The notes beneath the pieces are model-generated. The model saw only the letters and a program-made list of their open reading frames with translations. It made no database searches and was not told where the DNA came from. Below are positions 1,443 to 29,309 of a stretch of DNA of 64,000 bases, in pieces. Source of the stretch: Plumapathes pennacea (taxonomy: Eukaryota > Cnidaria > Anthozoa > Antipatharia > Myriopathidae); assembly GCA_964036295.1 (NCBI GenBank), contig OZ038473.1, positions 317,501-381,500 on the forward strand. The letters run 5' to 3'. Numbering within the stretch: position 1 is the first letter of the stretch; the number at the start of each line of letters is the position of its first letter. Position numbers and translations under genes: made by a program.

Positions 1443-2021
1443 TCACTCCTCCTCATAGACTGTGGAAATAAAGTTGACCCTTGGATTCAGTGCATGTCAT
1501 GAAACTATGAAGCACCTGTACCCCTTTTATGTGGAAGTTCCTCCCCCGGGATCTAGTTTGTGTTATAATTGTATTCGATGTGGTTGAACAGCTACTGAGA
1601 CAAGCTAAACCATTACTTTCCTAATAGATTCGGAAAACGTCATCACAGGTAAAATAGATTCATCCTTATCGTTGCAATTACGCATGCAGTGGGGCTATAT
1701 ATTATTTCAAATCTTACCGTAAGGCATGAAATGTTCGTTAAGTGGCGCCTCCTGTGTCTCTTCTGCTTCTCTTGATTCATGTCGTTCTTCTTTAGGGTTG
1801 TCTTCTTCTTCTCTTGATTCATGTTGCGCTTCTTCACGGTTCTCTTCTGCTTCTCTTGATTCATGTTGCATTTCTTTAGGGTTCTCTTCTGCTTCTCGTA
1901 ATTCACGTTGCAGTTCTGCGAGTTCTTGTTTATAACAACGACCCTCTGCGACATTTCCACTGATGATGAAAGCACCAAGAAGGAACACCAGGAGGCACAG
2001 TTGCATCTTGAACGAGGCCAT
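1443..2021 (-). CDS. Gene A: secreted acidic coiled-coil repeat peptide
   Basis: This is a predicted secreted acidic protein of about 106 residues from two exons. Exon 1 (2021 down to 1718) encodes the signal peptide MASFKMQLCLLVFLLGAF, then a Glu/Arg-rich mature part with one Cys (residue 29) and four 14-residue repeats (residues 42-97) of the type REAEENxxExxHES. These should form a charged helix or coiled coil. Exon 1 ends in phase 1 at a strong donor (G|GTAAGAT). My preferred exon 2 (1459-1443) follows the acceptor TTTATTTCCACAG and adds a few acidic residues before TGA, with AATAAA about 50 bases on. That second exon is less certain than the first. The ATG at 2021 was chosen because the signal peptide and promoter match those of genes B, C and D. 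Function is unknown. Confidence 0.7.
1731..1898 (-). repeat. Four 42-bp in-frame repeats in gene A
   Basis: Four consecutive 42-bp units each encode 14 residues ending in HES or its variant. The last unit has diverged (it ends in LNEH). The period is a multiple of three, so copy number could change without a frameshift. Confidence 0.85.
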
Positions 2022-2117
2022 GTTTAATTTAGATCTCTGCAAAGTGAGGTAAATGGGCCGGGAGATGAAATGAAAATAAGATCGCACTCTGCTGAAAGAA
2101 ATCTTACCACTGAAGCC

Positions 2118-2235
2118 TTCTTTTATGTGGTCTGTAGTTGAAACAGCCATCGATAAATGTTAGCTGAGTATATACTATACTTGAGACTGCTGCAACGGCA
2201 TGGATCGTATTTCTATTTTAATAAACTCTGAACAG
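2118..2235 (-). promoter_or_regulatory. Shared proximal promoter block, gene A copy
   Basis: Read on the minus strand this block contains, in order, TATTAAAATAG, CCGTTGCAGCAGTCTCA, a TACTCAGCTAAC-like word, then CAGACCACATAAAA as the TATA-like element about 100 bases before the ATG. The same order and spacing recur upstream of genes B (7050-7150), C (23070-23170) and D (27454-27560). Confidence 0.75.
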
Positions 2236-3898
2236 TCTGGTTACATGTGATCAGAGTACCAATTCTCAATCAAACGTCTAAAAAATTAGATGGGGCAGCA
2301 CTGGAAATCTGGCACTTTATATTCTATCCAGTTACTGAAATGTGCAACTTGAAATTAAAGCTTGTATCTGGTTGATTGGGTAACTTTGATTAGAAACCAG
2401 ACGAAAAGCTTTGTTGGTCTGAAATATTTTTACCGCTGCCTGAGTGTACACACGTGTGTTAAATATTACACAACTGTCTGGTGAGTAATTTTTAGTCCCC
2501 ATTTATTTATGCAATCACAAGCTGGCATTGGAAACTTTTAGTCAGACATACCAAACCGCAGCTGATAACCAAAAGCCAAGAACCAAAAAGGTTTTAGAAG
2601 CTAAGCATCACTAATTTTTTTTAAATAAATGAGAGACTGTAGAACTCGTATCTTTTCAATATCAACCAGTCAATAACCCTGAAATTCCGATGTTTCATGC
2701 AGATAAACATTAGGATCCCTAATAAGCTCAATTGTGTCCACTGATCATGATTATTTTTTTAAACTCAACTTAGAAATGCACAAGCCAGGTCAGCTTTTAT
2801 TAGAATATGGTTTATTGAACTTAATATTTATGTCTAAATTCAAAATTACGTTAATTTGCATCTAATAGTCGAAGCTAAGGCCGAAATGCAAAGTCCAAAG
2901 CGACAGATGCCCTAGTATGGCTGAATACATTTTGTCACAGCAGGCGTATACTGAGTACTTCCTGAATTTTGTTTTAAGATATTGTTCACAGGACCTTATT
3001 TGGTGACAACGTATGCGAGATTCCACACACGGGAAAGTGAGTGAAATTACAATAAGAACTACAATAGGTAGCCTGGGTACGAGATTGTCCATAAATAGTG
3101 AGAATTTGGCGGCCATTTTGAAATACTTTTAATGTGGAGTTTTGTTCAGCCATTTTCGCTTGTATATCGCTTGAAGAGATGACGGGGGACGACTGAGTCC
3201 CATAACTGCAGTAAATAGTAAATCTGGAAATCTGGAAATGAACAGGATATCTGGTCAGACGACTGTTGGCGACTCATCGATCGAGCGACTGCTAAGATGT
3301 GGAAGCCATACGTTTACTCGAGGATACAGAAGGTAATTATTCAAGACCTTTTGAAAATTTTGAGGCGGGCGAATTGACCTGCAAATCTTACATGAAACCG
3401 GACGGCAGCAGGACAAAGCTTGCACGATATTGTAATATGTAGGCATTTAAGTCGTGTGAAATTTAAATCACTCAAGACGCTGATAAAAATAGTGCCCGCA
3501 GCCAAAAGTCGGTTACTAAGAGAGTTGGATAATGATTTGTTTCACTTAATATTCGAAATATTTCCGGGTTCTAAGTGTCTAGCGTAATAAAGTCGCAATC
3601 GGCCAAGTTTCCCTTCAATGCTGAGACAATTCAAAGAGAGTGAACAGATGTTTTGGCCTGAACTTACTATCATGCATACCACGTTTCATCAACTGAATAA
3701 CACTGCGTAAATGAAAAAAATCTAGAAAACCCAGTTAAAAATTTGTCAGCACGTAAATGTTGTCATGCACTGAAAAACAACAGTCAGAAATATAGCAACA
3801 ATCAGTGGTTTTTACTTATAGTATTTTGCATTAGCTTTGGCGCATGCGAGAAACGGCGTCTGAGCCGGGCCTGAAGCATCAAGTGCATGGAAATCACA
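2236..3898. other. Gene-free stretch between genes A and B
   Basis: AT-rich DNA. Short open frames on the minus strand at 2862-3116 and 3255-3446 have no supporting features that I trust. Nothing else is recognised. Confidence 0.45.
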
Positions 3899-5604
3899 TC
3901 AAATTATAAAATATTTTCCATTGGTTTTCTGAACTATCACCAACTGCAAGCTATAAGAGAAACATGATGTAAGCTTCTGCACAAATGAAACGAAAAACAC
4001 GGTGATTGTTTTTCCATCTTTTATTTGGTGAGATATTGTGCAACTTCGGAGTTTATTTGCCATGTAATGTTTACATCTCCTAAGTATGCGCCTCCATCTT
4101 TGGTTAGTCAGTTTTCTCAATCCGATCCTCTCTCCATGAACTAAAAACACAAAAGCAGATATTAGCCGAGACAGTTTCAAATGAACCAATTACATACATG
4201 TAGTTACGTAACAATATCAAGAAATGTCTGCTTATTTCTGTTTTAGGTGTGTGGGATAAAAATGAGTGTAAGATATAATGACACATCATGAACCATAAAT
4301 TAAAGTGTTGTCGAAAACTGCTTGCGTTATTGAGCAACAAGAACATTTCCAATTTTGTTTTGGTTTATAGAAATTCCATCTACTGTATTAAGTGTTTTAA
4401 ATAAATCAAAACCAAGATTTCAGTTGGCTTACTCTATAACCTGCCATAAATTCTGTTTAGCGAAGAGAAGGAAAGGAAATAAGTTGATCAAATGACTTCC
4501 ATTACGTCATATCTTCTATGACGTCTTCGTTCAGTCAGAATATAGCTTTCAAAAATCAAGAAGTAAAACAAAGGAAAGAACATTCTAACGTGAGTTCAGA
4601 TAACAGCCTATGACATCATGAAAGTCTTCTTTTGGCTCGGTTTCGCAAGTATTTTTCGGTCTCGCAAAGCAACACTCAGGCGGACAATCTGTCAGTTTTT
4701 GCAGGCTATACTTCTTCTCTGGCATGTGTGTAAATAGAGACTGGGCGAAGTCGAGTTTTTGTGGCAGCTTGGGACCGTGTCGGGAAGTAAGTCGTCTTAC
4801 CGTAGTGACTTTCCATATTTGTCGAAACCTTGAGGGGAACCTGTTAATAAAGAAGTCTTATCTTCAGGGCTGTTACACCTATATTAGAAGGTCCGATGGC
4901 CCTGATTAAAGCAGACAATTTATACGACTTACCAACAAAACTTGAAATCGGTCCACAATGGACAAAAATTGAGTCTACTAGCTGATCTGGCCCAACTGAA
5001 ATTATCCATCTAATTCTCTGTCGTACAGGCAAAGTCATACTCCTACCGTATCACCCGACGGAAAAATAGAAGTCAGAATAAATATTGCCGGTGCAAGCCA
5101 AAATAATTGTGAAGAAAGCGATTACAGAAGCGGACCAGAGAAAAAAGTGCTTTGGGCACATGCCGCTACTTTCATGGATCCCCTTCGTCCAACTTTTGGC
5201 ACAGAACGCTTGTACTGAGTGGGTCATATGAAGACACAGGTCATTTCCTTAAAATTAAAATTACCCGACGATTAAGTTTAACAAAATTATGTTAGTGTTT
5301 TTCGGCCTTGTTTCCCGATCTGACAGCCGCTGCTTGAAAAATATTACAATTACTCAAGTCAAACTGTAAATTCATACAAATTAAACATAACGTAGTTGCC
5401 AGAATATACCGCGTTCACGTATACAAGATTGTAATTATTATTTTATATCCGACCAGTTTAGTCAGAACTTATAGGTAGAAAATACTTTTATTATTGTATA
5501 CATTACTATCAAATAATTTAGTCCCAAATTACTTCTGCCAGCAAATTATTGACAGTGTCCCCAATTAGTTTGTAAAAAGCTAAATACGTAGACACTTAAA
5601 TAGA

Positions 5605-5696
<92 letters not shown>

Positions 5697-6965
5697 AATA
5701 TATAAATATAAATACAGGATAGGTTGTCGCGGTTATTTTACCCTTGCAGGGCTCGGGATCAAATGTTCAAATACGCTTTGACAGCTCTCTTTCTCCTAAA
5801 GTCGTTGTAGTTCTTTTTTTAGGGGAAAGTTTAAAACTAATTTATTCATGATAATATATACAATGATAATAATGATATGTGTGTAACTCACCGCCAGACG
5901 TCGTCGGGCAAACCAGACAGGAATATCTACTCTGGTAACCACCACAAGACTCGAGCTCACATCGTCTTTCTGTAGAATTGAAAAACGACAATTGCTACAT
6001 TATCCATTCTATAAAAATGACATTCAGAAAATCACATGCTAGAAAACTTTGTCAGCAAAGGCCGGGATAAAAACATCACAGTCAAATATTTTTCCTCAAT
6101 TTTAATAATTTGTAATTTGTAAGTATTTGGAGATTCAGTGGCCGAGCGGTCAGGGGTGGTGGAACAGAATCCGAAATGAAGCTCTGAACCAGGAGGTCGT
6201 GGGTTCGATCCCCACGGCCAGCAGTAGTGGGAGGGTTTTTCATTTGAGGAGGCAACTCCAACGCTTTTACCTCTCCGAACCTGTCTACTTTCTACAAGTC
6301 TTCCACCAACATGGCCCCACCAGCTACTAGCTGACTTTTTTTTGCTGTTGTTTAGTATAATGGTCGCGTTTTAAGGAAAACGTGTAAAATTAATCCATTT
6401 GGCCTGGTGACTCACCTCTCCGTTTCCTGCAGAAACAAAACTCCCAATTAAGTGGAAGATAAGGACCTGGCGAACCTGGTGGACCTTGGGGACCCGGACT
6501 GCCTGGGAGACCTTGATCACCTGGTGCACCTATAGGACCTATGAAACCTGGTTCACCTGGAACACCTGGAAGGCCTGCAGGACCTTTTTGACCAGCGGAA
6601 CCTGGCTTACCTGGGTCACCTTTCTCACCTCGACCGCCTATAGGACCTGTAAGGCCTGTAGTACCTGGAGCACCTGGATCACCTTTAGAACCTTTGCCAC
6701 CTTGAGAACCTTGGATACCTTGATTACCTTGAGGACCTTGAGGACCATATATACCGGGGGGACCATCACGACCTGAGGAACCTGGAGCACCATTTTGACC
6801 TGGAGGACCTGGAGGACCTGGAAGACCTGGAGAACCTTGAATGCCTGGAGGACCCTGAGGACCTAATACTCTGAGCTTGTTACTTTTTTTGGCCGGCAGT
6901 TTTTCACTGATAACTAAGCCAAGCAAGGCCACCAGAATGAACAGTTGAATCTTGAACGCTGTCAT
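3899..6965 (-). CDS. Gene B: secreted short-chain collagen with Cys-rich C terminus
   Basis: Exon 1 (6965 down to 6416) encodes a signal peptide ([18 protein letters not shown]), a short basic linker, 45 uninterrupted Gly-X-Y triplets, and a tail with a CFC motif and a basic KRR. It ends in phase 1 at G|GTGAGT. Exon 2 (5969-5892, phase 1 to 1) has a clear acceptor and donor and adds four cysteines. Two further phase-1 exons fit well but are less certain: 4995-4933 (TTTCAG acceptor, GTAAGT donor, one Cys) and terminal 4140-3899 (TTTTTAG acceptor, basic, stop at 3899). The start at 6965 matches the shared cassette; an upstream in-frame GTG is not used. A secreted collagen chain of this size could act in mesoglea or a capsule wall, which is inference. 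It differs from minicollagens, which have about 12-16 triplets. Confidence 0.75.
5606..5693. repeat. (ATT)n microsatellite
   Basis: About 29 ATT units in intron 2 of gene B. Confidence 0.95.
6131..6230 (+). mobile_element. tRNA-like segment, probable SINE head
   Basis: An A-box-like TGGCCGAGCGGTCAGGGG at 6139-6156 and a perfect T-arm (GTGGG TTCGATC CCCAC, about 6200-6216) give internal Pol III promoter spacing. The sequences where the two acceptor strands should lie do not pair, and the segment runs on into unrelated sequence. I therefore call it a tRNA(Leu/Ser)-derived SINE or pseudogene rather than a working tRNA. It lies in intron 1 of gene B. Confidence 0.55.
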
Positions 6966-7049
6966 CTTCAACACAGACTACAGGAAGCGATCTGCTCAGG
7001 ATGTAGACTATCGTATTCCGATGAAAATAACCACAACTGATCATGGAAA

Positions 7050-7150
7050 GCACTCTTATGTGATCTGCAGTTTAATCAGCCAGCGGTCATCGTTAGCTGA
7101 GTAAATACTAATACGGCATGGACTATATTGCTATTTTAATAAACTCTGAG
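7050..7150 (-). promoter_or_regulatory. Shared proximal promoter block, gene B copy
   Basis: Minus-strand reading gives TCAGAGTTTATTAAAATAG, then CATGCCG, ACTCAGCTAACGATGACCGC, and CTGCAGATCACATAAGAG about 90 bases before the ATG. It matches the gene A block almost throughout, except that the GTTGCAGCAGTCTCA word is shortened. Confidence 0.75.
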
Positions 7151-9049
7151 CACACAAAGCTGTGATCAAGCCTTTTGAAGGTCTGAACAAACGTAGAGAA
7201 ACTCCAGCCAGGATTATCAAGTAGAGCAGAACTGATCCAACCATCATGCATCATTTGTACAATTGATTCGGAACTGCTGGAATCATTTGCAGTTAAATGT
7301 TTTTGCAGGATTAATTTGTTGTCAAGTTATTAACTTTTATTGGGAGGAAGCAGTTATGTCGTCGAAGGGTGCAAATGCTTCCATGGATTAATTGGGATTT
7401 ATGGCTGTGGACACCGCTCGTCCTGCTTGTTCATATTGTAATTGCTGAACACTCATTTAAATATACTTGGCCACATATATTTACCATTTAATTTTATTTT
7501 CCCAAAATTTTAATTAACTAAACCTGAAATTCTAAAGTCCCGCGAGATATTTTGGCAAGCGATTTTAGTCGTAGAATCAAAAACTACCAAAATGAAAGCT
7601 TCAGAAAGTCACTGAATGTTGAGCGTGTTGTCCGCTTGTGTGGCTGCTATAAAACACATGCAGAAAAGTTGAAACATATCACCAGGGATCGTTCTTACGT
7701 GCGATCTGTAGCAAACCAATCTGCGCTCAGTTGCATGACGCGAGTTCAGTGAAAGATGGATTACATGTCAGGCTTGCAATAGATTTATTTCTAATCACTC
7801 AATGACTTGGTGCCTTGACCTCAAAATTACTGAAAAAACAAATACAACAGAACAAACAATATATACACGCGATAATAAATTAAAATTAAAAAAACAGCTT
7901 AAGACAAAACCGAACCATCACATGTAAAGTCTCGCAGAAAAATCTCCCTAAACAAGCGTCATTAAACAAACGTCTTCCTGTCAGTGACTGCTCAAAATTC
8001 TATTGAAGTAATCTCAATCTAGTTGGTGCATAGAAAGAACTAAATTTTCTTATTGATGAAGGTTGATTTTGTCCCCGTCGGAAAATAATGTATTTCTCTT
8101 CCCCAGTTTGCAGTTGCAAGCTTAATGTTCAGCGGTTGTTCACGCCAGAAAATCGGTCACTATGACAAAATTCTCTGGACAATCAAACCAGAAGCCTTGG
8201 GCTGTTCACCAGTTGCAAAATAATCCCATTAGGTTGTCGAAAAAGGTCTAACATCACGAATTATGTACCATTGATTTTTTAAAACATTTAAAAATAATTA
8301 ATAGTTTCCAAAAAGTTTCGTACGGAATGAACATCTGCCATTTGCAATTTGATGAAAACTGGGGTGTTCCCTCGAAATGTTTTGAGACGTTCAAATGGGA
8401 AATGGAAACCCATTCAAAAAGTACCAAATTGTGAGAGAGAAGAGGAGGGGGGGGGGGGGGGGGGGGCATGATTCACTTGGCCGATATGCCAAGTGAATTA
8501 TCGCTTGCAGTGTTTGTTTGGGACAGACAGTTGGAAATTCGCAACGAAATGTGCGGAAGTGGCTTTTTTCATTATTAGCTACCTAAAAAATAATAATAAA
8601 AAAAAGCCAAAGACAGAATTATTAGCTATATAGAACGTAGAGTCCCCAGGTAAAGACTGAATATTTTGTACCGCAGCCTAAACTGCTCAATTAGGCCGCC
8701 ATGTTTACACAATACCAGGTGACTGGATGGCCTCATGTTCGAAAAACGGGGAGATTTTGATGTCGATCGATCGGTGGTTCGACGAGTTGAGTACGGTCGA
8801 GTGGTAAATGCACTACAGGCGTTTGTACTTTGACACTGTAAACTGCGTTCGAGATGCTCGAAATGGAATTCAAAAAGGAAAAAAAAAGCACAGAAAAAAA
8901 AATAGGAAAAAAGTATTTTACGGGAGTCTCGCTGGTCTGTATACAATAATACGCTTTAAGTCCGTCGTGTGTCCGTTCGTAACCCTCTTTCCTAGGTCTC
9001 CTCATCATACAAATATCGAAGTTGGCTGCCACATTGAGTGAAACTAATT
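7151..9049. other. Gene-free stretch
   Basis: No gene is supported. A poly-G run lies at about 8448-8466. Around 7690-7720 there is a faint resemblance to the cassette promoter (CAGATC followed by ACGTAAGA on the minus strand), too weak to call. Confidence 0.5.
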
Positions 9050-9155
9050 AACAATTATTCGCCGAAGTGGAGGTGAATAGCGGTGGATATTTGCCGAGCC
9101 GTTTCGGCGAGGTAAATATCCACCGCTATTCACCGACACTGAGGCGAATAATTGT
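9050..9155. repeat. About 105-bp near-perfect foldback
   Basis: The left arm (AATTATTCGCC...GCGGTGGATATTTGCCGAGCC) is answered by the right arm (GGCGAGGTAAATATCCACCGC...GGCGAATAATT) around a short loop. It lies immediately beside the inverted-terminus element at 9159-9353. Confidence 0.8.
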
Positions 9156-9158
9156 TTT

Positions 9159-12108: not shown

Positions 12109-12143
<35 letters not shown>

Positions 12144-12865: not shown

Positions 12866-12899
<34 letters not shown>

Positions 12900-15800: not shown

Positions 15801-18558
15801 GGAAGACAATTGAACGCCTGACGAAACTCAATATTTAATTTCTCGAACTGTGTAAGAAGCTAAATGAAACTGCACTGCAGTATATTTACTTTCTTTTAAC
15901 GCACGCTTGTAAATGGGCCGTGTCCAAAATTAGACTCTGTTACGGAGATACAACAACTGGTTTATATAGTGAAGTGTTCGCGATTATCCGTATGCTTATA
16001 AATGTTTTACAAGCCGTGCGGTCTTTGCAGTTAGTCCGTCAGTGACTTTCATTTATCCAGAGGGCGATCATTTTTCTCCTTCTGTTTACATAAAATGAAA
16101 ATTATATAGTGAATAATTTTATGAAGGAAATTTATCACTGGACTGTTACTCTCGATCAAACTAAGCTAATGGCCACTATGCTTCGCTAATTTGGTGAGTC
16201 TTCCAGAAAAAGGGGTCTACAGAAATAATATGTATTAATAATAATAAGTCAGAAGGGGAAACAACAAATATTTGAGACGGGTCTGTTGCCGGGACGTCGA
16301 AAATAAAATAAATATAGTGGACTTCTGAAGGAAGAAATATTTATGTCTACATACCGACATAGCCGAACAGTTCCGAAACAAGACAGCCCGGCGGACATTG
16401 TCGGAAGGATCCGCTAGATACCGACTGCACACGACACTGATGTGTAACAACGTCATTACGACGTCATTAGGTCTGACAGCATCAGCTGGCCGGCTTTGCC
16501 AAGCAGATCTGTTGGCCAAATCAAGAAGTACTCACCATCTAAAGTGTGTATGTGTGTCCACTGCGATGTGGGTTCTTCTCCTTCTTCAGATGCCGTGTAC
16601 GCATTGCCGGCCGGAAACGTAATAAAAGGGCGATGTTTATTTAGTTTGATATGACGTCAGTCTCTGTTGTTTATATCATGGCCACTTTATGGTCACTTTT
16701 GCTTTTAGTAAGCCGTTTGCCCTTCATTTTAATGCACATCCTGTTGATTAACTCTTATCTGTTGGCAGATCGCCGGCTCCACGTTAATTTCCTGAACTAC
16801 CACAGCCCTGACAAGAACTGAGTCATTATGTATTTGTTTTGGCTGTGTAAACGCTTATTTAAGACGTCGTGCCGGCATTTTAATTATGCTTTGTTACAAA
16901 GGCCTGATGTGTACATTGCGACAACTTCAAAACCGGCCCGCGTGAGAGACAAATGAGTTCGTTACAAAGACCAAAGTGCGCGGAAACCGCTGGCCTTCAA
17001 AGTTCCACGGCTCGATGTGTTTGATTGTCTGGTTCTCGCACAGCCTGCACACGTCACCTCAGGTCAGAACCGAAGTTTGTTTGATTATTGCTTAGCTTGT
17101 TGCTAAATCAGGTTCTTAGAACCTTTTTTTCTTTGATAGCATCTCAGCCCTTCAATCACTGATCTTCACTGCCTATGACCCGTAGGCCAAAGTGAAGACC
17201 TACACTTAGTAAAGCAAGCAGTCGCATCTTGCACTGAGTGGTCCGGACGACTGAAATGAAGGTTATAGATTATTACGCTCGATAACCGGTAGCATTGCTC
17301 GTTCTGTTGTCGAGCGGAGGGCCATTTAGTAGTCTGGAAAGCCTAAAGCGAAACTGGCACGAGTGTCAGCTTTAACTACTTTTAAATACTTGAATGCTTA
17401 TGATTCCTCTAAGAGCGGAACTGTGCATTTTTAGTGGTCTTATTTACTTTGTCATACGAAGTGCAAGTTTACGAGTTCCCCATGAACCTGAATCATAAAT
17501 CTCGACGTTGTGTGGGCGTCCTGGCGACAGTTCAAACAATAAGGACATGCTAAGGCAAATCTAATGCTCCAACAGCACTATTACTTTTCTCTTTATACCT
17601 GTACTGTTTACACATTTTGTGAATCCATACGGGTATATACTGATTTATCTTTCTGGGAGCTATAAACTATTTTATTACAATTTCTAATTGTTCTAAACGA
17701 CAAACGCGCGGTCGAATTTAAAATATTTTAGAAAAAAAAATAATGTTACAACAGATTTCCACCGTTAAATTTACCATAAATCGTACTGTTTAATTGATAA
17801 AGTATACGCTATTCCATCTGCACACAGTCTCACTAAATTAAATTCTCAAAAGTGGTAATAATATACGCTGCTTAAAAAGCAGGTATTATCTCCGGGGAAA
17901 GATATTTAAATCCTGCAGACAACTTCCTGTTTTTATATTTCCTCGTTTAATGAAAAAACTTGCAATTAAAATTTAAAAACTGCGAACGAAACACCCTAGG
18001 TCTTCCATTTTAATCAAAAGTGTGAAGGGTATTGTAAACTTGAACAACGGGGAAGTCATAAAAGAAAATTTCATTTGGCTACAAGACAGCTGTGCCTATT
18101 TCCCTGGCACACTTATTCAAGCCGGCTATGATTATTTAATCCTAGGGTGTTAAAACACAAGAGTATGGTCCTATGGCAGGCGTCATGGCCTTTATTAATA
18201 CGTGCGCATCAACGTGTTCTACTTAGATGAGCGTTCAAAACACGAAAACAAACAGAGGTCAATCAAATGTGCCTGTTGGGCAATTCACTCACCGACTGTG
18301 TTGATTGACACTTGCCCTGAGTGACAGGTGATACAGGTTTCTCATAATTAACATTTTCTCGGCGAACACTGTAAATTTGAATGAGCCTGGTTGGACGGGC
18401 AGACATTGTTTGATACAATACAATTTCGCCATACAGCGATGGCTCATGTGTCGTGATCGCTAATCAATTCACATCCCTTATAATCGTGCTTTTGTTTGAT
18501 CCTAGCCGCGTCATGTAACAAGCGGCCCGGAACGCCAAGCCAACACCGGCCATTAATA
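11353..18558. other. Gene-free 7.2-kb stretch left of the GPCR
   Basis: I find no gene with support. Contents: poly-T runs (12112-12143 and about 12869-12898), a 17-base tandem repeat CCTGTGTGTGACAATA (about 14378-14420), a degenerate TATACGAAAATT repeat (about 14605-14690), and otherwise unique AT-rich sequence. It may hold regulatory DNA or non-coding first exons of the GPCR, which I cannot see. Confidence 0.5.
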
Positions 18559-21350
18559 ATGGCGAACTGTACAAAATTCACGGAGAGCGACGTCAATGGA
18601 AAGATGGTTCTGTCGATGCTTTTCCTGTTCCTGATCAGCGTCTTCGCTATTTTTGGGAACACTCTCGTTTGCGCCGCCTTTGCAAAGAACAGGTCGCTTC
18701 GCATCCTTACGAACTATTACGTTGTATCTTTGGCCGTTTCGGATATTTTGGTTGGAGCAATCAACGTTCCACTATGGATGTATATTATTGGTCCTACCAG
18801 GTAAGTACAATATATCTGATGAGTGAACTCACTTGGGCTGCTTACTTATTCAATTAAATTCGTTTAAGTGCGGATCTGATGTGGACGCTTGTGGGGTTCT
18901 CTGCCTTTTCAAGTGCGACGATGCATCTCGGTAAAATAAGTGTCCGTCACACAAATAATCTGTATTTATCTGCCAAACTTGTGTTTCAAGTGCACAGCGG
19001 TCAAAATAACCGAAGGGTTACTGAAAATATCAACTGTCCGGTTCCAAAACAAAAACGAACCTTTCGATTTTCTCTCAAACAGTTCACAGTACAATATTTA
19101 TTGTTGTTTGGGAAACACTGTATCGGTTTATTTTGTTACAAGTAGAAACTATGCAGGGATTTATTTTCCTTGTGGTTCTCCTTCGAGTTTCTCAAGCTTG
19201 CTCTCTTCTCTCGGCGTCCCGATTATATATTATTTTTGTCTAAGAGTTTTGTTGTACTGAGGAAATTTAATATCTACATACTGTATGTTCCAAAATTTGT
19301 GGATCAATATGCTAGAGATATCCATTTCATTGCGAAATATAACATAAATAAATGCATTACTGGAATGGATAAAACACGAAGTCATTAATCTCCTTCAGAA
19401 TCCAGACTTCCTTGTTGACGTCATGCAGTCGTGAATTTGTTGTCCCAAGGGGTCGCTTAGAGCGATCACGCAACGATGGTTCCTTAGCTTTTAGTCACGT
19501 CAACACCGATGTGTTTCTATTTAAAAACGCATCGTTTAACCTCCGCTTCCGAAGTCACCTGCAAACTGATTCGACCAAAACACTGATTAAAAACACATCG
19601 TTTTTGAAAACTTTCACTTTTGATAGCGTCTTCGTTTTCTAAATAGTCACTATGCCTGAGCTTCAGATTAATTTTTTCGTCGCATACTTCTAGTTCTGAT
19701 AAGCGGAAACCAGGGATAAATTCTTGAAACTAAATCATGTTTATAACCCCACATTTCGAGAAAACGAATAGCGTGACTAATAGAATCTGAAAAAGCCATT
19801 TTTGAATATTCCGATATTGGGGAAGTGGTATGAGGCATCGACACACAGAAGGAGGAAATCTAAGTGGGTACTCAGTACCAACAGGGCGCACTAAAACTGT
19901 GTAGGCTTTAAGTCCGTGCAATTTAGAAAGCGTTGAGTGAAAAATTGACAAACGTGTTTGTCTCCACAGTTCTTGTGACAACGGATATCTGGAGGAGGCC
20001 TATGTAATATTCGACATTATCTGTGGCACCGCGTCCATCTGGAACATGACGATAATCAGTATTGACAGGTAGGAAGCACCAAATTTTATTCTTTTTATTC
20101 TTACTGTATGATTTGTCTTTAGTGAGAGGCGGAATAAGAAATTGCAGCTGATAACTCCCCATAGCACTGTCGAAGGCTAATTTCACTCAAGCTCAGTATA
20201 CAGTTGTGTTGCCTTGTACAGCATCGCATTTCAAGGAACGTTCTGCATGAATATTGCGTTTTAGTTTTTACCACAACTCACTAGTTTCTCGCCCTCTGAT
20301 TGGTCAATTTTTCATGGTAAATGAGAGTCCAGACAACGATGCTGACGCCAGCATGTCACACTTTGCAGCGAAATACAACAAAAGTTTCCTGTATATTTCT
20401 AAATATTGTGATAAAAAATCAAATTTCCACTGGTTTGCCGTGGTGAGGACTCTTAATAGTCCAGTCAGCCTTCATTCGTCTGAGTGAGCTATCGAAAGCC
20501 AAGACCTCCATGATGCGTGACGTGTTTCTGTTTATAAGCTGAAAGGAGAATTTTTACCTTGATCACTGAAACAAGGCCTACGTATTTAACAACACTAGTC
20601 TATTCCAGGTTTATGGCCGTGACATACCCAACAATCTACAGACACCGCATGAAAAAGAAGAACGTTGCTTTGTGGCTTCTGGTTTTCATCTGGACATTTT
20701 CGGTCCTTGTGGCTAGCCTTCGTATTTTCCACAAGCTCTTCAACTACGCCATGTTTGTAACGACATTAAGCTTCTTCATTCCTTTTGCAATCATTCTTTT
20801 CTCGTATGGGAGCATTTTCCGCGTGGTGAGATACCGCGCAAAGTGGACTGGGTCCGTGCTGATGGAGATCAAAATGGCGCGTACTCTCTCGATCGTGATT
20901 GGTGCGTTCATCATCTGCTGGGGGCCGTTCTTCATCCTCAACATTGTGTCGTATTACTGCCGAGAGCGGTGCAAATACCAGGTGGCCGTTCAAGTGATCA
21001 AATGGATGCAATATGCAAGTGCGTGCGTCAACCCGGTCGTCTACACGGTCAGAAATCGTGACTTTCGCTTCGCTTTCCATAAGCTCATATTTCAGTGCAG
21101 CTACCGAAACGGAAAATACGTCATACGTCCCAAAGCAAGGCACCGTAGTTTCTTTGGGAAAATCTCGACAAATTCTGGAGTTGAAATGCGCACGCGATTA
21201 GCAACTTATACAGAAGATGCTACAGTAAGCGCGTTGTACGATGTGCAGTCCTCGGCGCATTCAGAAGAACGACAGAAGACTTCTGTATCGGGCAGTCTCA
21301 AGCGATCTGAAGAAAGCGATTTTGGAAAATCTCCCATCTTGAGCAAGTAG
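18559..21350 (+). CDS. Class A (rhodopsin-like) GPCR, amine-receptor-like
   Basis: This encodes a seven-transmembrane receptor of 360 residues from three exons: 18559-18800, 19970-20068 and 20609-21350, joined in phase 2 both times. Visible landmarks are an N-glycosylation site NCT at residues 3-5, GN in TM1 (N34), LAVSD in TM2 (D62), an Asp at residue 96 (position 3.32, the amine-binding Asp), DRF (113-115) in place of DRY, CWGPFF in TM6 and NPVVY in TM7. W142 (4.50) to P172 (5.50) is only 30 residues and has no Cys, so extracellular loop 2 is very short and the usual TM3-ECL2 disulfide is missing. ECL3 carries a C-x3-C pair. Asp 3.32 argues for an amine-like ligand, while the short ECL2 recalls melanocortin-type receptors. 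The ligand is unknown. An in-frame upstream ATG (18496) exists; the ATG at 18559 looks better placed. Confidence 0.9.
18801..19969 (+). other. GPCR intron 1
   Basis: A 1.17-kb intron with GTAAGT donor and TCTCCACAG acceptor, interrupting between TM2 and the TM3 region. No nested gene or repeat is recognised. Confidence 0.85.
20069..20608 (+). other. GPCR intron 2, inside the DRY arginine
   Basis: A phase-2 intron splitting the Arg codon (AG|G) of the DRF motif, with donor AG|GTAGGA and acceptor TATTCCAG. Introns at this place are known from many animal GPCR genes. Confidence 0.9.
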
Positions 21351-22699
21351 ACTGTAAGAAATGTTCCAGCATTTCTGACTCCTGAGCATTCCATTCCAGA
21401 TTCTAACGGTCTCAATTCCATGTTGAAGGGATGGAAAAATAATCCCCTGGACACGGTCATTGGTTTGACTTAAGTCAAAAAAAAGTATAAAAAAAAAAAA
21501 AAAATGCATGAGGTCCCGTGAAGCAGACTAATAATAGATCGAGGAATTCAGAACGAACATTATGCTGTTTAGTTGATAGGCAATATTGTCTAAACCTGCT
21601 TTGGGATGTATAGATATATATTTTTTAGGCTCCTGATAAATAGTGTACAAGCTCAAAATTTACGTATACTCTAATACCGAGTCTCAAATTTGAAGTTGAC
21701 TCCCCCAGCCAGCCAAGAGGACAATGTGTAAGTAATGTAGTGAAAAGTATTTGTTTAATCTGCCTTTTTTCTTAGTAGCTTATCAAAACTTCTCAACGAT
21801 GCACGATAGTGTAAAATTATCTGGTTAGTGATCGAAGAATAAAATTGAAGTTGATCAATTATTAGGAGTGAAAGAGTTCAACATTTACAGTGAGTTGCTG
21901 CTTTGCTTCATGTAAAAGTACAAGCTTCTTTAACTTATTCCATAAATTATATGCATTTACAAACTGAAATAACTATATTCTAAAATTAATACCGTTTAGA
22001 GCTCCACAAACAGCAAAACAATATACTTTTTACAGCTGTCTGTTTAGGTGTGCACATACCTATCATATCATTAGTATATATATTGTTATTATTATCAATA
22101 CGTACTATAATTACGTGTTATTGAGTTGCTAAAAGTATTCTGTATCTGCACCGTTAATATGTCTATATATAACGTATTTACACATCATTTGATTGCTGTA
22201 CGTGTTACAGCCATTGCATACATTAAATGCTCCTCAAAAGAAGTGAATTTTCTGACATCGCCAAAAGAAATTTCAGCAGTTTTATATAGTAACATATAAT
22301 AGGAGTATACACGAAAGACATATGTAATAATAGAAATAGAAAGTCCAAATAATAGAAATAATAATAATAAAAAAAGGTTTTTGGCTTTGGTTTATGGCGC
22401 ATCATCAAAATTACGTAAGGGAGGGGAGAGGGTGCAGTTAGAAAAGAATGGACATTTTACAATACGTGTATATTAAGGTTCCTGTGAGCCAACCCGTGAA
22501 TGACTAGAAATCTGCTGTAGCTGTAGATCTACTATCTGTTTATAGATGATTGGAAAAGAAAAGTTAAAAATACGTGGTGTTTGTGTAACAGCAAGACCTC
22601 AAGCTGACAACGTAGGTGGACTTCTGAAACTTTCATTTTAGTGGCATGGACCGTCATCTCTCACTTTCTATGATGTTTCGTTTGGTAAATATTTCAGTG
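21351..22699. other. GPCR 3' flank and gene-free DNA
   Basis: Contains a poly-A run (about 21489-21503) and, at about 21690-21876, a diverged relative of the TTTCACTCCC element with AATAAA at about 21839. Nothing else is recognised. Confidence 0.5.
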
Positions 22700-22739
22700 G
22701 TAAGTGTCGAATGTGGGTTTAGGATTTCAGTTAATAAAT

Positions 22740-23230
22740 GGAAGTTTGGAACAGCTGAACTAAAAACTACGTAAATAAATGTGGCTGCAGGGTATATTTA
22801 TATATACGGAAAACAATATTCACCAAACATTCGCAAGCTTTGTTTACAAACGGTGTGCACAGCCAGATTCACAATTAGAACAACAAAGTTCGTTCATCAC
22901 TCAGCGACGACAGTTTTTTTAGATTCTAACATTACAGGAGTCAAACGAACTTTGTATGAATATTTTGGTGATAGCTGAATCAGTTTTTATCTTGGTAAAA
23001 GTGATTGCCGAATTCTCCTCACTGTACCAGTAATTAAAAAGAGAAAGTAGGCCTTGATCACATTCAGGAGTTCAGCATTATTAAAATAGCGTTATTAAAA
23101 TACTATGTGCCGTTGCAGCAGTCTCAGGTGGTATTTATTGGCTGCCTAAGCTGCAGATCAAATAAAAGGCTTTTAACATTTTCTTTATCTCGATCGTCTC
23201 GTATTCGGACTTCACTTCGCAGTGCTAAAA
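22740..23230 (+). repeat. Duplicated 5' flank of gene C (partner 27180-27649)
   Basis: Colinear words shared with the gene D flank include GTAAATAAATGTGG, AACATTCGCAAGC, ACAAACGGTGTGCA, GTTCGTTCA, ATTCTCCT(C/T)ACTGT, CCTTGATCA and CCGTTGCAGCAGTCTCAG. About 0.5 kb of upstream sequence was therefore duplicated with the gene. Confidence 0.75.
23070..23170 (+). promoter_or_regulatory. Shared proximal promoter block, gene C copy
   Basis: Order: TTATTAAAATAG (doubled here), CCGTTGCAGCAGTCTCAG, GGCTG, then CTGCAGATCAAATAAAA as the TATA-like element about 65 bases before the ATG. It is followed by a CTTCACTTCGCAGTG word also found, with changes, before the ATGs of A and D. Confidence 0.75.
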
Positions 23231-23231
23231 G

Positions 23232-25373
23232 ATGTTCGCGTTCAAGATTCAACTGTTCCTTTTGGTGTTTATCGTCGGCTTCATCATCAGCAGAGCAAAT
23301 CCGGTACCTGGTAAGATATTGGACAGTACTTTCTCTTTTTAACACCCATGTGGCAACCAGAAAACAATCCTTTAAGTCTTCGTGTGCTTCAAAGACGTGT
23401 CAGCCATGTATACACCGTCGCTCTCAATCATACACCAATCACATTTGGCAGGCAATGGGAAAAGGATGCTCCAATTTTTAACAATTGTATCTATTCGTTA
23501 TCGTTTTTCAACAGTTCCACATCATCGGTACAATGGGTATCATCGCTCATACGGGTGCTACTGCGGGGATACGGTTGGTGAGTTACAGTCCTGTCGAGTA
23601 GAGTTTCCTTGAAACAGGAATAAGTATAGTTAATTTCAAGAAAAAAAAAAAAGAATCAGGCTGATTTATGTGACGATATAGAAATGTTTGACTATTTGGC
23701 ACGACAGCCAAGTGGATTCCTTAAATCCAGCTTTTATCTAATATAAACAGTATATCAGTTAGCTCTGCTTATAATAGAGTTGCCATGGGACCTGACGCAC
23801 CTTGCATGAGTCAACCTTAAACGCTAGCTGTTCATCTATTGAGAAAACACAGCTTTTGCCTCAGGGAGCAGAGACTTCCCTGGAAATTACAAAAAACCCC
23901 TTCCCCCGTTCTTATCCGATCCTTCAAAATACCAAAGAGTATACTTTTTCTATACTCTGTTCTGGACCTATTAAGGGCAGAGCGTATAGCCGATCAGCAG
24001 GGAGTGACCTAAAACCGGGTCTCTATGGTAGCATTTTTTGCATTGTTATGCAAGACGGTATGTTGTAAAGCCATTCGGCATGTATACCACAGACTCACTC
24101 AAAAATGTAACTGTCAAAATGTGAATGCCTCATGTCGTTAATTTTAAGCCTTTGTAAACCTCATTATCTTATGTAATCTTCGACAGTTGCTTATATGACT
24201 CGAAGATGTCGCTGTGGGGATGGTAAGTAGCAGTATTAGGCTGCTGAGCCTGCTGCTTGATTTACATGTCATCACTATATTACCACTACTTGCTATTACT
24301 CGTGATGTTTAAAAATTGTACCAAATTGCACAAAGTGCTCAAATTTGTGACCCTGTTCAAGTCTGAACCAAAATTTGGACCCTATTCAAGACACTAATGC
24401 AAAATGATATATTGCACGTAATTTTCCTTACTGCACATAGGCAGCAAAGTTGTCTGCGTTTACGCGGTAATACACATCAAGCACAAAACTCTTTGTAATA
24501 AATACGTGGTGTAGTTCAAATGCTATCATATAGACGACGGATGTAATCTGAATGCGAGATCAACGTCACGTAAAAACTTTGGTTACGAATTATTAAATGT
24601 GATTGCCGTTCTCGTCGCGCAAGTTTAAACCCAGTTCAAGCCGAAGTGGGAGTTCAAGTTAGTTGACCGTGGTAGTTAACCCTGTTTAAGACACAAAAAT
24701 GTAAAATTCTATATATATATATATATATATCCTTGTTTAAGACAGAGGACCCTAAAAACCATACCCTATCCAGCGGAGTATCACCCCCTCACCCCTCTCC
24801 CCTCGAAATGAACGAACACAGTAGACAGATCGAGAGGACAGCAAAACATCAATCAACCAATGACGACCAATGACGAAACATGCACAGCCGAGCCAACTCG
24901 ACCAATCATATGACGACAAAACACATCAACGACCAGAGACATAAATACCGCCATCTGACGAAACCTTTCACTTGACTTTAAAAATGGCTTCCGCTCAGGG
25001 AGTCGAAACCTCAGTCACCATCAACAGTCTTCCCGGAGACTACTCTAACCCGGACGATCACAACCAACCTACTGTTCTCACCCCTGGGTTCAAACCATTT
25101 GCTATTATACAATTATCGTCTTATTACAGTTACCGACGAGTTCAGAAAGTCAAAACGCCAACAGTTGCCTTGGGCGTACGGGAAATGCAGTCGAGTATCC
25201 GTATTGGCTGCATTAATTATTGCTCAGCATACATTACACAACAAAGTATATTGAAACATTAGTTGGCTAACTGTGATATATTTACAAGAAAGTGTTCGGA
25301 TATGTTTGTTAATTCGCTTATTCACTGTTTGTTTCTGGCAGGTGGCTGGGGGTATAGGTGGGACGGCCCTTGA
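23232..25373 (+). CDS. Gene C: short four-Cys secreted peptide, Gly/Tyr/His/Arg-rich
   Basis: Predicted 69-residue precursor from four coding exons, every junction in phase 1: 23232-23310 (signal peptide MFAFKIQLFLLVFIVGFIIS, to ANPVPG), 23515-23577 (GYHRSYG, then CYC), 24187-24222 (basic, then CRC) and 25342-25373 (GWGYRWDG, TGA at 25371). Donors are G|GTAAGA, G|GTGAGT and G|GTAAGT; acceptors are AACAG, GACAG and GGCAG. A further donor (AAG|GTAAGA, 25381/25382) right after the stop pairs with TCTTCCACAG at 25691-25700, giving a 3'-UTR exon with AATAAA at 25786. Gene D has the same architecture and a similar GYHRxxG motif. The role is unknown; a small secreted disulfide peptide could be antimicrobial, signalling or structural. 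No part of it was recognised from a named family. Confidence 0.6.
24840..25262 (+). mobile_element. Possible retroelement 5' fragment in gene C intron 3
   Basis: GC-richer DNA with repeated CCAATGACGAC words, an ATAAATA box (about 24944) and an ATG (24984) opening a frame of about 90 codons. The frame does not continue into any reverse transcriptase or transposase here. Related ACCCTATT-rich tracts lie at about 23880-24050, 24330-24400, 24640-24790 and 26660-26760. It looks like debris of a dispersed element; the family is not determined. Confidence 0.35.
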
Positions 25374-25700
25374 TAGCCAAGGTAAGATGGCTGACTAGCG
25401 AACCAAACTCATACCATAGCACAATCATTTTTCCACTTTGTCTGTTCTTCCCCACAGACAAGGCGACACGTTTTTTCAAGTCGACCTACACTTTGAGAAC
25501 CTCTCCGTCCTCTGCATTCAGATCCGTTTTGATGCGAGAACGCATTCGGTTTCCAAACTCTCCACCTTGAGAACCTATTTGAAAATGACCTCACCCCCCA
25601 CCCCCAGCACACCCCCCCCCCAAGTACCCCCCTCAATTTCCTACAAAAAATCTCGAGTGACTGATTTTGTTAACCTTTACGTCTTGCGTATCTTCCACAG

Positions 25701-25815
25701 ATGACACATCTTTTGGACGCTGATCGGCAAGACTTCAAATCATTCATTCCGTACTTTACTAGCCATGCTTCTCGCAATTACTATAAATAAATGCTAGGAA
25801 GTCAAGTTGTTCGGT
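25701..25815 (+). other. Gene C 3'-UTR exon and poly(A) signal
   Basis: Begins after a strong TCTTCCACAG acceptor and contains AATAAA at 25786-25791. The stop codon lies only about 8 bases before the last donor, so the transcript would not be expected to trigger nonsense-mediated decay. Confidence 0.5.
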
Positions 25816-27149
25816 TTTCACGGTTTTCTTTTGTGTCTGTTATTGTGTATATAAGTCACTGTGTGTCAGTGTACAGGCATGACCATCACCGTGTGGACCC
25901 TTCAACCCTTCATATTTCTCTCTTCATTATTTTTCTTCTGAGATTTATCACGCACTAAGAATAACTCATTAACTTTTGAGAGCTCGCTCCATAGCCAGAA
26001 CTTATGTACATTCAGCGGTCTACAGTACTCGATACAGCTGCAAAGATTCTTTTTGTAAATAACTGTTCAATATACGGCTTAAGAATATAAATTAAAATAC
26101 TCCATATGGATTAAAAGTAGGGTTTCTTGAAGAGAGCCAAAGAAATACGTATGGCCGAGTGAAACGTGGTGGGACTGGGTAACACATTAGGGACAGTATA
26201 ATGTATGCTATATGAAGAGTATTCCATATAAAAACCGCTGATCAATTTATTTGAAAGGACAAAATGGCGAGGACGGACGGTGCGATGATTTTGCCGTCAA
26301 AGCGGCTCCAGATCTGGTCATCGAACAGTCAAAATTGCACCTTTTCAACTCTAAAAGGAATTGTCTTAATGGCTTGACAGTGAATGGTGCAACGGAGCTT
26401 TAACATGTCATTTTTCGAATATTAATCTAATGCTGTAGACACATGTTGGAAACACTCGTTATACGCAAAGGACTGACACGATGACATTGAGGTAAGCCTT
26501 TCATATGAGGGTTAAACGTGTCAATTCTAAGAATTACATAGTTCAGATTATCCTCTAAACGATATAGTGGCTAGTGAAATGTCAATAATTTATGCAGGAG
26601 AGTGTACAGGTTTTACCCGGGGGGGAGGGGGGGGGGCTCTCATCATTTTGGGAGTGTCCGCCCGGTCCTGAAAACCCTTACCCTATTGCAGACCGAAATA
26701 ACTGATTTCCTATACCCTATTTCAAACCTGACTCCAAAAATGTGTACCCTATTGTGTACACAAGTTTTGTTTGTCCAAAATATCCGTTCAAGTTTGATAA
26801 AATTTAAAGAACTACAGACGAAGTCAGTTTTATTTTACGTGTTTTAGTTGTCAAATGTGCGTCTGATTACGCAATCATCGCGTGTAAAGAACCAAGCTTC
26901 AAACTGACATAAACCGTATATAGTATTTCTGGCTAACCACATAAACGAGTGTCTGTGAATTGATGAGTATATCTTCCTGCTAAGCTTGGTTTTGTGCCCG
27001 ATACCATTGCATTATAACCATAGAATAAGTTATACACTCCACGTCACATTTTATTGGTCTGGTGGCCCGTCAGAAGATCTGCGTTTCGCAAACTGCGCAT
27101 GACTGTAAAAGTGGCTTATTCACTAAACGTTACAGTGTGAGTTCAGGAT
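25816..27149. other. Gene-free stretch between genes C and D
   Basis: Holds a G-rich run (about 26619-26636) and an ACCCTATT-rich tract (26660-26760) related to repeats inside gene C. No gene is seen. Confidence 0.5.
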
Positions 27150-27179
27150 ATCAGGTTTAACAAACGAGAGTTTGGGATA

Positions 27180-27649
27180 TTGAAATAAACGGTAAATAAA
27201 TGTGGACGACTATAATTATAAATACGTGACCAAAAATATTCACAAGCTACAAAATAAACATTCGCAAGCATTTTTTTACAAACGGTGTGCAAAGCCAGAA
27301 GTCACAATATTATTTATTAGGCAGGTTCGTTCAACACTCGACGACGTTGAATTAGTTGTTCTCTAAATAAAATATTATTTGCTGGATTCTCCTTACTGTT
27401 TTACCGATGTTTGTTTGGAATGTTCAAAGAAGAAACTCCACCTTGATCAGTTGATGTTCAGAACATAGCAATTTCGTCCATACCGTTGCAGCAGTCTCAG
27501 CTGGTATGTACACAGCTAACGGTGACCGCTGGCTGAGGCAATTGCAGACCACATAAAACTGAGGATTTCAGCAAGTTTCATTTCATTGTGTAGAGAACAC
27601 GTTCTTGTCTTCATCTCGTCCGTATTTATTTCACTTTACATTGTTGAAG
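27180..27649 (+). repeat. Duplicated 5' flank of gene D (partner 22740-23230)
   Basis: Colinear with the gene C flank, as described there, including the promoter block. The two flanks have diverged clearly, so the duplication is not recent. Confidence 0.75.
27454..27560 (+). promoter_or_regulatory. Shared proximal promoter block, gene D copy
   Basis: Contains TGTTCAGAACATAGCAATTT in place of the TATTAAAATAG box, then CCGTTGCAGCAGTCTCAG, CACAGCTAACGGTGACCGC, GGCTGAGG, and CAGACCACATAAAA, the TATA-like box about 95 bases before the ATG. The last 60 bases closely match the gene A and B copies. Confidence 0.75.
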
Positions 27650-27981
27650 ATGAACGCGTTCAAGATTCAACTGTGCCTTCTGGTGCTCCTTGTGGGCATC
27701 GCTTCCGAAAGTCTAACAGTATATGGTAAGATATTTCCCATGTTTCTAACTCCATGCACTGAATAATCAAGAAAAGCACGACGGTCGTACGGGTGGAGGT
27801 ATTTTTAGTAGCTGCTTGTTATCTGGTTGGACATTTATTTCATAAAAATCGATCATAGCCGACCGGTGCTTTCGAAAATTTTAGTAAAATGATAATGAAT
27901 TAAGCAAAATTGCCCTAAAATCAATTGAGGCAAGCGACCAATCATAACATATAAATATTTAGACGTGGTTTTAACGATGCA

Positions 27982-28043
<62 letters not shown>

Positions 28044-29309
28044 TTACTACTACTAACTTTATTTAAGTGTCGATGTATTTAGCTTTTTACAATATACTAT
28101 TAACTGTACATTTGTCCCTATCTTTTTGTGGTGGGATATAGTTACCAGAAATTAACTACTGTATGTGGTTTCTGGATCCTACTAATAAAACACGTCTTTG
28201 CACAGGTCGACCAGATCCGTGCAGTGATTGCGGTAAGCATGCGCTATAAAGGAGACAATAACTTTCACAGGTGGCACACATTAAAAAAGATAAGTTATGC
28301 ATATTCTGTAAACCCTATATATTGACTTACGTGAAGGATACCGCAGAACAATTGCATCGCGGGCGCGCAAAGGCACACGTACAAGGTATAAAATTATTTA
28401 TACTTAGTACGCGTCATGTCAGTGTTTAGGCGCGCGTATGCCTTCGCGCGCCCGCGACGAAATCGTCTTGCGGTATCATTCATGTAAGTCAATGTATAGG
28501 GTTAACCCCTCTGCGCCCTGTGCTCTTACTGACTGGTTTGCATTATTCTACAGGGCGTAGACGATGTGCTGATGATTGTTACGACGGCTACCATAGACGT
28601 GGGTATGGTAAGTTACAGTTGATGTCATTCAAGTAGATTTTGCTCACGTTTTTCTTGAAACACGGTACTGACACAAACTAAGTGATATCGTTTTCTCTGC
28701 TTTCGTGGATCTCGGGAGCCTGAACAATTTGATTTACAGTCACATCGGACAAAAACCGGTCCCAAATCTCAACCTCCGTCACTTCGCGGAATTACTCACG
28801 TCACACAGGCTCACGAGCAAATCTAAATGAAACTCAAAAATAGTCCTTCTTTTTCTAATATGTTTTCGATTTCGTGCATTACCCAAGTTCATAGCGGAAA
28901 ACCTCTCAGTTTGTTTATTAATGTTATGTCTCATTTAGGCCCTGTTTACATGGAAGGAGGGTGTCCCCCTTTACATGCCAAACGCTATCCCTAGGGGTTC
29001 CTCTCCAAGGGCAAAACACTTGGCGAGAATTAACAGACACCTGGTCTAGTTGTCTCTGCTGGAAGGCTTACCTTAGCAAGGAGATTGGGTAACCCACCCT
29101 CTTCCTAGGGTGACCCTACCGATCATGTAAACGGAACAAGGAATTTTAACAGAGAAGGTGACCCTTCTTGGAGGGTGTTCCCCCAAGTACGGTCACCCCG
29201 CTTTCATGTAGACAGGGCCTTATTTGCCAACGTTTTACTTCTTATAGCACCAGTACGACGTCATCAGTTTGATCGGCGTTTTAGGTTGGTGCCCGGTGTG
29301 GATTCTTAG
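27650..29309 (+). CDS. Gene D: short four-Cys secreted peptide, Arg/Gly/Tyr-rich
   Basis: Predicted 72-residue precursor from four coding exons, all junctions in phase 1: 27650-27725 (signal peptide MNAFKIQLCLLVLLVGIASES), a 27-bp microexon 28206-28232 (PCSDC), 28554-28607 (CADDC followed by GYHRRGYG) and 29248-29310 (basic, TAG at 29307). Splice sites are strong (G|GTAAGA, G|GTAAGC, G|GTAAGT; acceptors CACAG, CTACAG, TATAG). A donor GGG|GTAAGA-type site follows the stop by one base. Paired with TTCATAG at about 29833-29839 it gives a 3'-UTR exon with AATAAA at 29922. It is the closest relative of gene C in architecture and in the GYHRxxG motif. Introns 2 and 3 each carry an inverted-repeat element. 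Function is unknown. Confidence 0.6.
27982..28056. repeat. (TAC)n microsatellite
   Basis: About 24 TAC units with one TAT interruption, in gene D intron 1. Confidence 0.95.
28313..28502. mobile_element. 190-bp foldback MITE in gene D intron 2
   Basis: CCCTATATATTGACTTACGT on the left answers ACATGTAAGTCAATGTATAGGG-like sequence on the right. The arms continue through GATACCGCA and GCGGGCGCGC, leaving a short AT-rich centre. Confidence 0.8.
28937..29221. mobile_element. MITE with AGGCCCTGTTTACATG termini in gene D intron 3
   Basis: AGGCCCTGTTTACATG (28937) is inverted at CATGTAGACAGGGCCTT (about 29206-29221). The body is rich in GGGTGACCC-type words. A partial relative begins at about 39077 in DOCK intron 20 (GGCTTTATTTACATGGAACG). 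Confidence 0.7.

Follow-up and report, generated by a model that had tools for sequence, protein, structure and literature searches.

In pipid frogs, a cluster of genes for antimicrobial peptides (AMPs) and hormone-like peptides carries a TATA box and conserved promoter motifs in every gene, with reported purifying selection on the promoter motifs and the signal-peptide region and diversifying precursors (PMC3731216). The KQY/KHI 'cassette effector' families of the pea aphid have a conserved signal-peptide region and divergent coding parts built from miniature exons (PMC7495047), and the sea anemone 8 (SA8) family comprises small secreted Cys peptides encoded by microexons in a tandem cluster with an inverted member (PMC10210398). 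We describe four genes, A to D, in a 64,000-nucleotide window of Plumapathes pennacea (C12:317501-381500, within a 290-Mb genome of 24 contigs; positions below are those of the window). Their products are conceptual translations, with splice sites picked by eye and checked for frame. We consider it likely, with a probability of about 0.62, that A-D form one small secreted-protein family in which the promoter and leader are constrained while the cargo changes fast.

The organization of A-D appears closest to that of the pipid frog AMP cluster, which is likewise a local cluster with a conserved promoter and signal peptide and diverging products. However, the pipid genes have a known hormone-gene ancestor and encode linear peptides, whereas A-D include one collagen and one acidic repeat. 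As in the aphid KQY/KHI families, a conserved signal-peptide region is paired with divergent coding parts on small exons. Most of the aphid genes are dispersed, with as many as 37 exons, whereas A-D lie in one cluster, have 2-4 coding exons and share a promoter, a word that is absent from the available text of the aphid paper. With SA8, A-D have in common that they are cnidarian genes for small secreted Cys peptides with tiny exons, in a cluster with inverted members. SA8 members, compared here by description, have one common Cys scaffold, and the available text mentions no collagen or acidic member. The A-D cluster belongs to a known kind of system. What would be new is a single cluster of four genes that ranges from Cys peptide through acidic repeat to collagen, which we have not seen in the literature searched; that search also found no paper on the A-D cluster.

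Two further cnidarian families resemble single products. The minicollagens of nematocysts have 12-16 triplets, polyproline flanks and two Cys domains of the form C...C...C...C...CC (PMC7981951). B is, like them, a short secreted collagen with a Cys-containing tail, but it has 45 triplets, a Cys spacing of CxCx7Cx4Cx8Cx2C and no polyproline run (both read by eye). The SCRiPs of reef corals have about eight Cys, with a spacing that ends in CCC, and are anionic (PMC2652719). C and D similarly consist of a signal peptide and a short Cys-rich mature part, yet their translations, read by eye, contain four Cys and no CCC, in contrast to the SCRiP motif Cx6-7Cx4-6CPx3-6Cx4-6Cx5-6CCC, and their mature parts carry a charge of +3.0 at pH 7. 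By these published features, as far as the available texts give them, the predicted B is not a minicollagen and the predicted C and D are not SCRiPs.

Promoter blocks and leaders of genes A to D

The cluster holds both orientations. A and B lie on the minus strand, with leaders starting at 2021 and 6965, and C and D on the plus strand, with leaders starting at 23232 and 27650; the outer start codons are 25.6 kb apart. Alignment of the four 5' regions yields shared blocks in the same order. Pairwise identity in the proximal promoter is 71-77% over 96-119 aligned bases, and blastn of the 900-1035-base upstream regions detects similarity in all six pairs (E-value of the best piece: A-B 9e-16, A-C 2e-6, A-D 2e-21, B-C 1e-7, B-D 7e-12, C-D 3e-25). 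When compared with 300 control windows from the same 94-kb stretch, all six pairs score above every control between -60 and -260. The shared stretch extends further than the initial annotation described. Between -300 and -700, B-C, B-D, C-D and A-C exceed all 300 controls, and the scores of A-D and A-B are reached by 5 and 148 of them. A second block, at about -300 to -575, is common to B, C and D, whose three pairs all outscore the 300 controls; its similarity to A is uneven. From -800 to -1200 none of the six pairs stands out, as 69 to 286 of the 300 controls reach their scores.

Four short elements had been proposed as an ordered block upstream of every gene. Their order is kept, but only A carries all four: 11 of the 16 element-by-gene cells match exactly, and 13 with at most 2 mismatches. 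TATTAAAATAG is exact in A, B and C and missing from D; the 17-mer CCGTTGCAGCAGTCTCA is exact in A, C and D and missing from B; CAGCTAAC, read off the alignment, is exact in A, B and D and missing from C; and GACCACATAAAA is exact in A and D, with 2 mismatches in B and C. The 17-mer gives three matches, all exact, against 0.13 expected by chance at up to 3 mismatches. Taken alone, TATTAAAATAG and GACCACATAAAA are not significant, their counts being reached by 6 and 9 of 100 shuffles. The last element, CAG(A)(C/T)CA(C/A)ATAA(A/G)A, is TATA-like and is the putative TATA box (distances from the ATG in Table 1).

A common leader type in all four genes, also proposed at the outset, is confirmed (MASFKMQLCLLVFLLG in A, MFAFKIQLFLLVFIVG in C, MNAFKIQLCLLVLLVG in D; the B leader has 16 residues): its coding part is 70-78% identical between genes. 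Identity falls to 44-57% in the 5' untranslated region (5'UTR), which separates promoter and leader. Because the more conserved promoter (71-77%) and leader flank this neutral-looking neighbour, the promoter looks constrained and not merely young.

A-D are a local gene family and not a dispersed repeat, since whole-genome searches place the cassette of promoter and leader at four places in 290 Mb, all within the A-D cluster. The initial annotation had called for such a count and had named a dispersed repeat beside unrelated genes as a finding that would refute its reading; the count gives four members in one cluster, and a dispersed repeat carrying the block is rejected. All three genomic copies of the 17-mer lie in the cluster. 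Searches with the 5' region of D recovered A, B, C and D, those with B recovered B, A and D, and those with C recovered C and D. Allowing up to 3 mismatches, we found four exact places, at A-D, and two with 3 mismatches (control, 2) for a degenerate TATA-like block pattern, and 12 places against 9 in the reversed control for a leader pattern. Four of the 12 are A-D; none of the other 8, read in frame, codes for a leader. A scan of the 30 kb left of the window with a simple signal-peptide rule gave no further leader of the A-D type. Protein searches with C and D returned only C and D themselves and missed the sister leaders, so that remote members could escape.

The picture of a conserved control region and secretion leader with very different products is therefore supported, and co-expression in one cell type may fairly be expected from the shared promoter. 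No result of this analysis points to gland, capsule or skeleton cells in particular.

Predicted products and their possible roles

The cargoes are as initially described, an acidic repeat (A), 45 Gly-X-Y triplets (B) and two four-Cys peptides (C and D). A has two coding exons, B two and a provisional third, and C and D four each, and consensus-like donors and acceptors occur at every chosen junction. The four Cys of C and of D lie on exons of 27-63 nt that precede the last coding exon. Pfam searches returned Collagen for B, six sub-threshold coil-like hits for A (the best, ATP-synt_B, at 22.5 bits vs a cut-off of 28) and nothing at E<=0.1 for C and D. C, D and the B tail had no match in NCBIfam, a prokaryote library, and a PDB search with C gave a best E of 0.39. 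At pH 7 the B tail has a charge of +2.7 and A of -17.8.

These features are consistent with the following scheme. One small secreted-protein gene would have been multiplied locally, in both orientations, to give A, B, C and D. The promoter, with its TATA-like CA(C/A)ATAA(A/G)A about 65-100 nt before the ATG, would fire all four together in one secretory cell type, and the leader would export the products. On moderate evidence, the ancestral product may have been a small Cys peptide encoded by tiny phase 1-1 exons, one of which B, C and D would retain as a homologous exon, while the leader exon of A would have acquired a long repeat of an acidic 14-aa unit and that of B the 45-triplet collagen. 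C and D could then act as small cationic (+3) Cys peptides, B as a similar Cys tail borne by a collagen stem, through which it could form trimers, and A as a strongly acidic (-18) partner.

A role as defence peptides or surface coat appears the most likely use; for the cationic Cys peptides we lean slightly towards defence or coat, and B would be their form with a collagen stem. Alternatively, the same family could supply structural proteins of a matrix or skeleton and not defence peptides. A collagen and a Glu-rich acidic protein are adjacent here, and papers on the skeletal proteins of corals and octocorals carry both terms. However, no named skeletal protein was matched in Pfam at E<=0.1, the generic Collagen repeat excepted, and the Cys peptides are cationic. 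We regard the structural alternative as the less probable of the two, though one to be taken seriously.

Relationship among the cargoes

The initial annotation had called the cargoes unrelated and had offered exon shuffling, with swapped cargo, or very fast evolution of the mature domains as explanations. The products are indeed very different, but their unrelatedness does not hold up as well, as the splice flanks hint at a homologous exon in B, C and D. Anchored comparisons of flanks (29 pairs each for donors and acceptors) were set against 522 donor-like and 1305 acceptor-like sites; three donor pairs and two acceptor pairs reached p<=0.01 (0.29 expected for each), p-values that are modest, post hoc and mutually dependent. 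The donor pairs are B exon 1-D exon 3 (1/522), A exon 1-D exon 1 and B exon 2-C exon 2, and the acceptor pairs are A exon 2-C exon 2 and B exon 2-C exon 2, the last combination matching at both ends. Among local DNA alignments of 53 segment pairs, three had 0/300 shuffles as good and one had 1/300, all of them involving D exon 3. The alignment of B exon 2 with D exon 3 (0/300) spans the acceptor and coding sequence. Together these data provide moderate evidence for one small Cys/Gly-Tyr exon that is homologous across B, C and D, and for a simplest exon map in which B2 = C2 = D3, with A1 = C1 = D1 as leader exons.

Units 1 and 2 of the A repeat differ at just 5 of 42 bases, which suggests local growth, and there is moderate evidence that the acidic part of A arose within its leader exon by tandem repetition of a 42-nt unit. 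A genome search with this part found itself and one weak place (E 0.37), and no source locus. The B collagen occupies the same place as the A acidic part, within the leader exon. The idea that A reads through an old intron-1 donor was dropped, as the real A donor flank resembles the donor of the D leader exon; B may still read through such a donor. Because the B, C and D exons look homologous and the A repeat appears to have grown in the leader exon, fast divergence of a single family fits better than shuffling, on moderate evidence.

Exon shuffling would have used phase-1 introns to place copies of the promoter and leader exon ahead of four mutually unrelated cargo exons. Phase 1, the classic shuffling phase, holds for all nine inferred introns, a uniformity that counts for the single family as well, and the mature proteins are not significantly alike. 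Past the leader exon, blastn between the genes gives only an 84-base A-C match (E 4e-4, outside the gene models) and a similarity between B and D introns (69% over 178 bases). The latter was rejected as homology in favour of a dispersed repeat, at 27916-28092 and 5570-5740, with a TAC/TTA run, TTTATTTAAGTGTC...TTTAGCTTTTTACA and 54 genome matches at up to 3 mismatches vs 0 in the control. Yet shuffling lacks a source for its cargoes: C and D find only themselves in the genome, A as described above, and the collagen matches one other locus only, in low-complexity-like pieces. Moreover, the splice flanks and the B2-D3 alignment indicate homologous exons, and the cargoes of A and B lie within the leader exon and not behind an intron. 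We therefore consider shuffling unlikely.

Several observations weigh against a single, fast-changing family. The mature proteins show no significant likeness (B tail-C p 0.17, B tail-D 0.22, C-D 0.20), and searches of a large protein set found no homologue of A (none of 314 candidates at E<=10), of D (none of 2) or of the B tail (0 candidates). The leader codons give no clear purifying signal, with dN (nonsynonymous divergence) of 0.19-0.37 vs dS (synonymous divergence) of 0.28-1.25 over 16 codons, and dN above dS for B-D. The best donor pair, B exon 1-D exon 3, clashes with a simple one-to-one exon map, although a duplicated exon in B might explain it. Among the four lowest alignment pairs, C exon 3-D exon 3 contains little beyond the donor consensus. 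Finally, the gene models were chosen by eye and are known here from genomic sequence alone.

This last point also bears on the possibility that some of A-D are relics or wrongly modelled, which would leave the cargo comparison partly empty. A stops five codons into exon 2, and the 3' end of B is provisional, with AATAAA within exon 3. However, the frames across the A repeats are long and open, the 45 collagen triplets are unbroken and every chosen junction is consensus-like, and we judge this possibility to be quite improbable. Gene conversion that keeps the four 5' ends alike while the 3' ends drift would suit a similarity limited to the 5' end of genes in a compact cluster with both orientations, but is very improbable, as a tract spanning promoter and leader would include the poorly conserved 5'UTR, and the distal block, retained in B, C and D, is poorly kept in A.

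Within the single-family explanation, the promoter and leader exon might even serve as a nursery for secreted proteins: repeats born by slippage in the leader exon would have become cargoes in place, and the B collagen would have formed de novo within a small Cys-peptide gene and not from another collagen. The idea stems from codon use, which looks grown from a 9-nt unit (GGT for 40 of 45 Gly, CCT for 10 of 13 Pro at X, CCA for 17 of 19 Pro at Y). We hold it to be doubtful. Besides itself, the collagen stretch finds seven pieces of one C6 locus in the genome (68-83% identity), and these look like the codon-level resemblance that is usual for DNA encoding Gly-X-Y. The matches may reflect a habit of codon use common to both loci, or the capture of the stretch from another collagen.

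Coordinates, neighbouring features and significance

Table 1. Upstream blocks and predicted exons of genes A-D, in window positions.
Feature	Position	Strand	Basis
A exon 2, VYEEE and stop, then AATAAA	1443..1459	-	acceptor flank like that of C exon 2, 0.15% of controls as good
A exon 1, leader and acidic part, phase-1 donor	1718..2021	-	donor flank like that of D exon 1, 0.8% of controls as good
A acidic repeat, three complete 42-nt (14-aa) units plus part of a fourth	1731..1898	-	sequence reading
A proximal promoter block, ends in TATA-like CAGACCACATAAAA 99 nt before ATG	2121..2255	-	alignment, controls
A distal stretch, weak similarity to C (62.6%, blastn E 0.046) and D	2409..2506	-	blastn, controls
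B exon 3, provisional; AATAAA inside frame	3899..4140	-	acceptor and open frame only
B exon 2, phase 1-1, 26 residues	5892..5969	-	splice reading, exon/flank comparisons
B exon 1, leader, 45-triplet collagen and ...FCFCRKRR, phase-1 donor	6416..6965	-	translation, Pfam
B collagen coding stretch, 45 Gly-X-Y triplets	6459..6863	-	Pfam Collagen E 9.2e-21
B proximal promoter block, without CCGTTGCAGCAGTCTCA, TATA-like CAGATCACATAAGA 88 nt before ATG	7054..7170	-	alignment, controls
B distal upstream block	7335..7539	-	blastn B-D 62.7% over 236, E 7e-12; controls
C distal upstream block	22712..22909	+	blastn C-D 69.9% over 219, E 3e-25; controls
C proximal promoter block, without CAGCTAAC, TATA-like CAGATCAAATAAAA 64 nt before ATG	23052..23167	+	alignment, controls
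C exon 1 (leader), phase-1 donor	23232..23310	+	splice reading
C exon 2, phase 1-1, VPHHRYNGYHRSYGCYCGDTV	23515..23577	+	splice reading, exon/flank comparisons
C exon 3, phase 1-1, VAYMTRRCRCGD	24187..24222	+	splice reading
C exon 4, last coding exon, GGWGYRWDGP and stop	25342..25373	+	splice reading
D distal upstream block	27136..27346	+	blastn, controls
D proximal promoter block, without TATTAAAATAG, TATA-like CAGACCACATAAAA 91 nt before ATG	27442..27558	+	alignment, controls
D exon 1 (leader), phase-1 donor	27650..27725	+	splice reading
D exon 2, phase 1-1, 27 nt, GRPDPCSDC	28206..28232	+	splice reading
D exon 3, phase 1-1, GRRRCADDCYDGYHRRGY	28554..28607	+	splice reading, exon/flank comparisons
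D exon 4, last coding exon, APVRRHQFDRRFRLVPGVDS and stop	29248..29309	+	splice reading

The frame of gene A is open upstream to an ATG at 2150 (1707-2150, minus strand), beyond the TATA-like block, and the start at 2021 depends on where the transcript starts. Between A and B, open reading frame (ORF) E (2862-3116, minus strand) encodes 84 aa with a hydrophobic start and several Cys and has no NCBIfam match. It was rejected as a fifth family member, as its leader differs from those of A-D; its protein comparison with A gave p 0.003, in one of 15 pairs. A class A G-protein-coupled-receptor-like gene lies inside the cluster between B and C (18496-21350, plus strand), with Pfam 7tm_1 at E 6.9e-24 over 20559-21350 and the part from 18496 read by eye. 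Inverted repeats occur at 9050-9156 (52-nt arms, 87%) and in the intron preceding D exon 3, at 28308-28506 (72-nt arms, 85%). Outside the cluster, the left edge of the window carries a C2H2 zinc-finger coding stretch with several HxRxHTGE(R/K)P linkers (103-345, plus strand), and units of about 3 kb, 76-99% alike, stand in tandem two to three times at 53500-62000.

Toxins, insect effectors and frog peptides already provide families with a conserved leader and variable cargo. One that extends from Cys peptides to an acidic repeat to a collagen would show the range of products that can come to stand under a held promoter and export signal. With only four genes, the set is compact enough for repeat growth in the leader exon to be dated by comparison with related species, and the shared promoter may offer a reporter for the secretory cell type that uses it.

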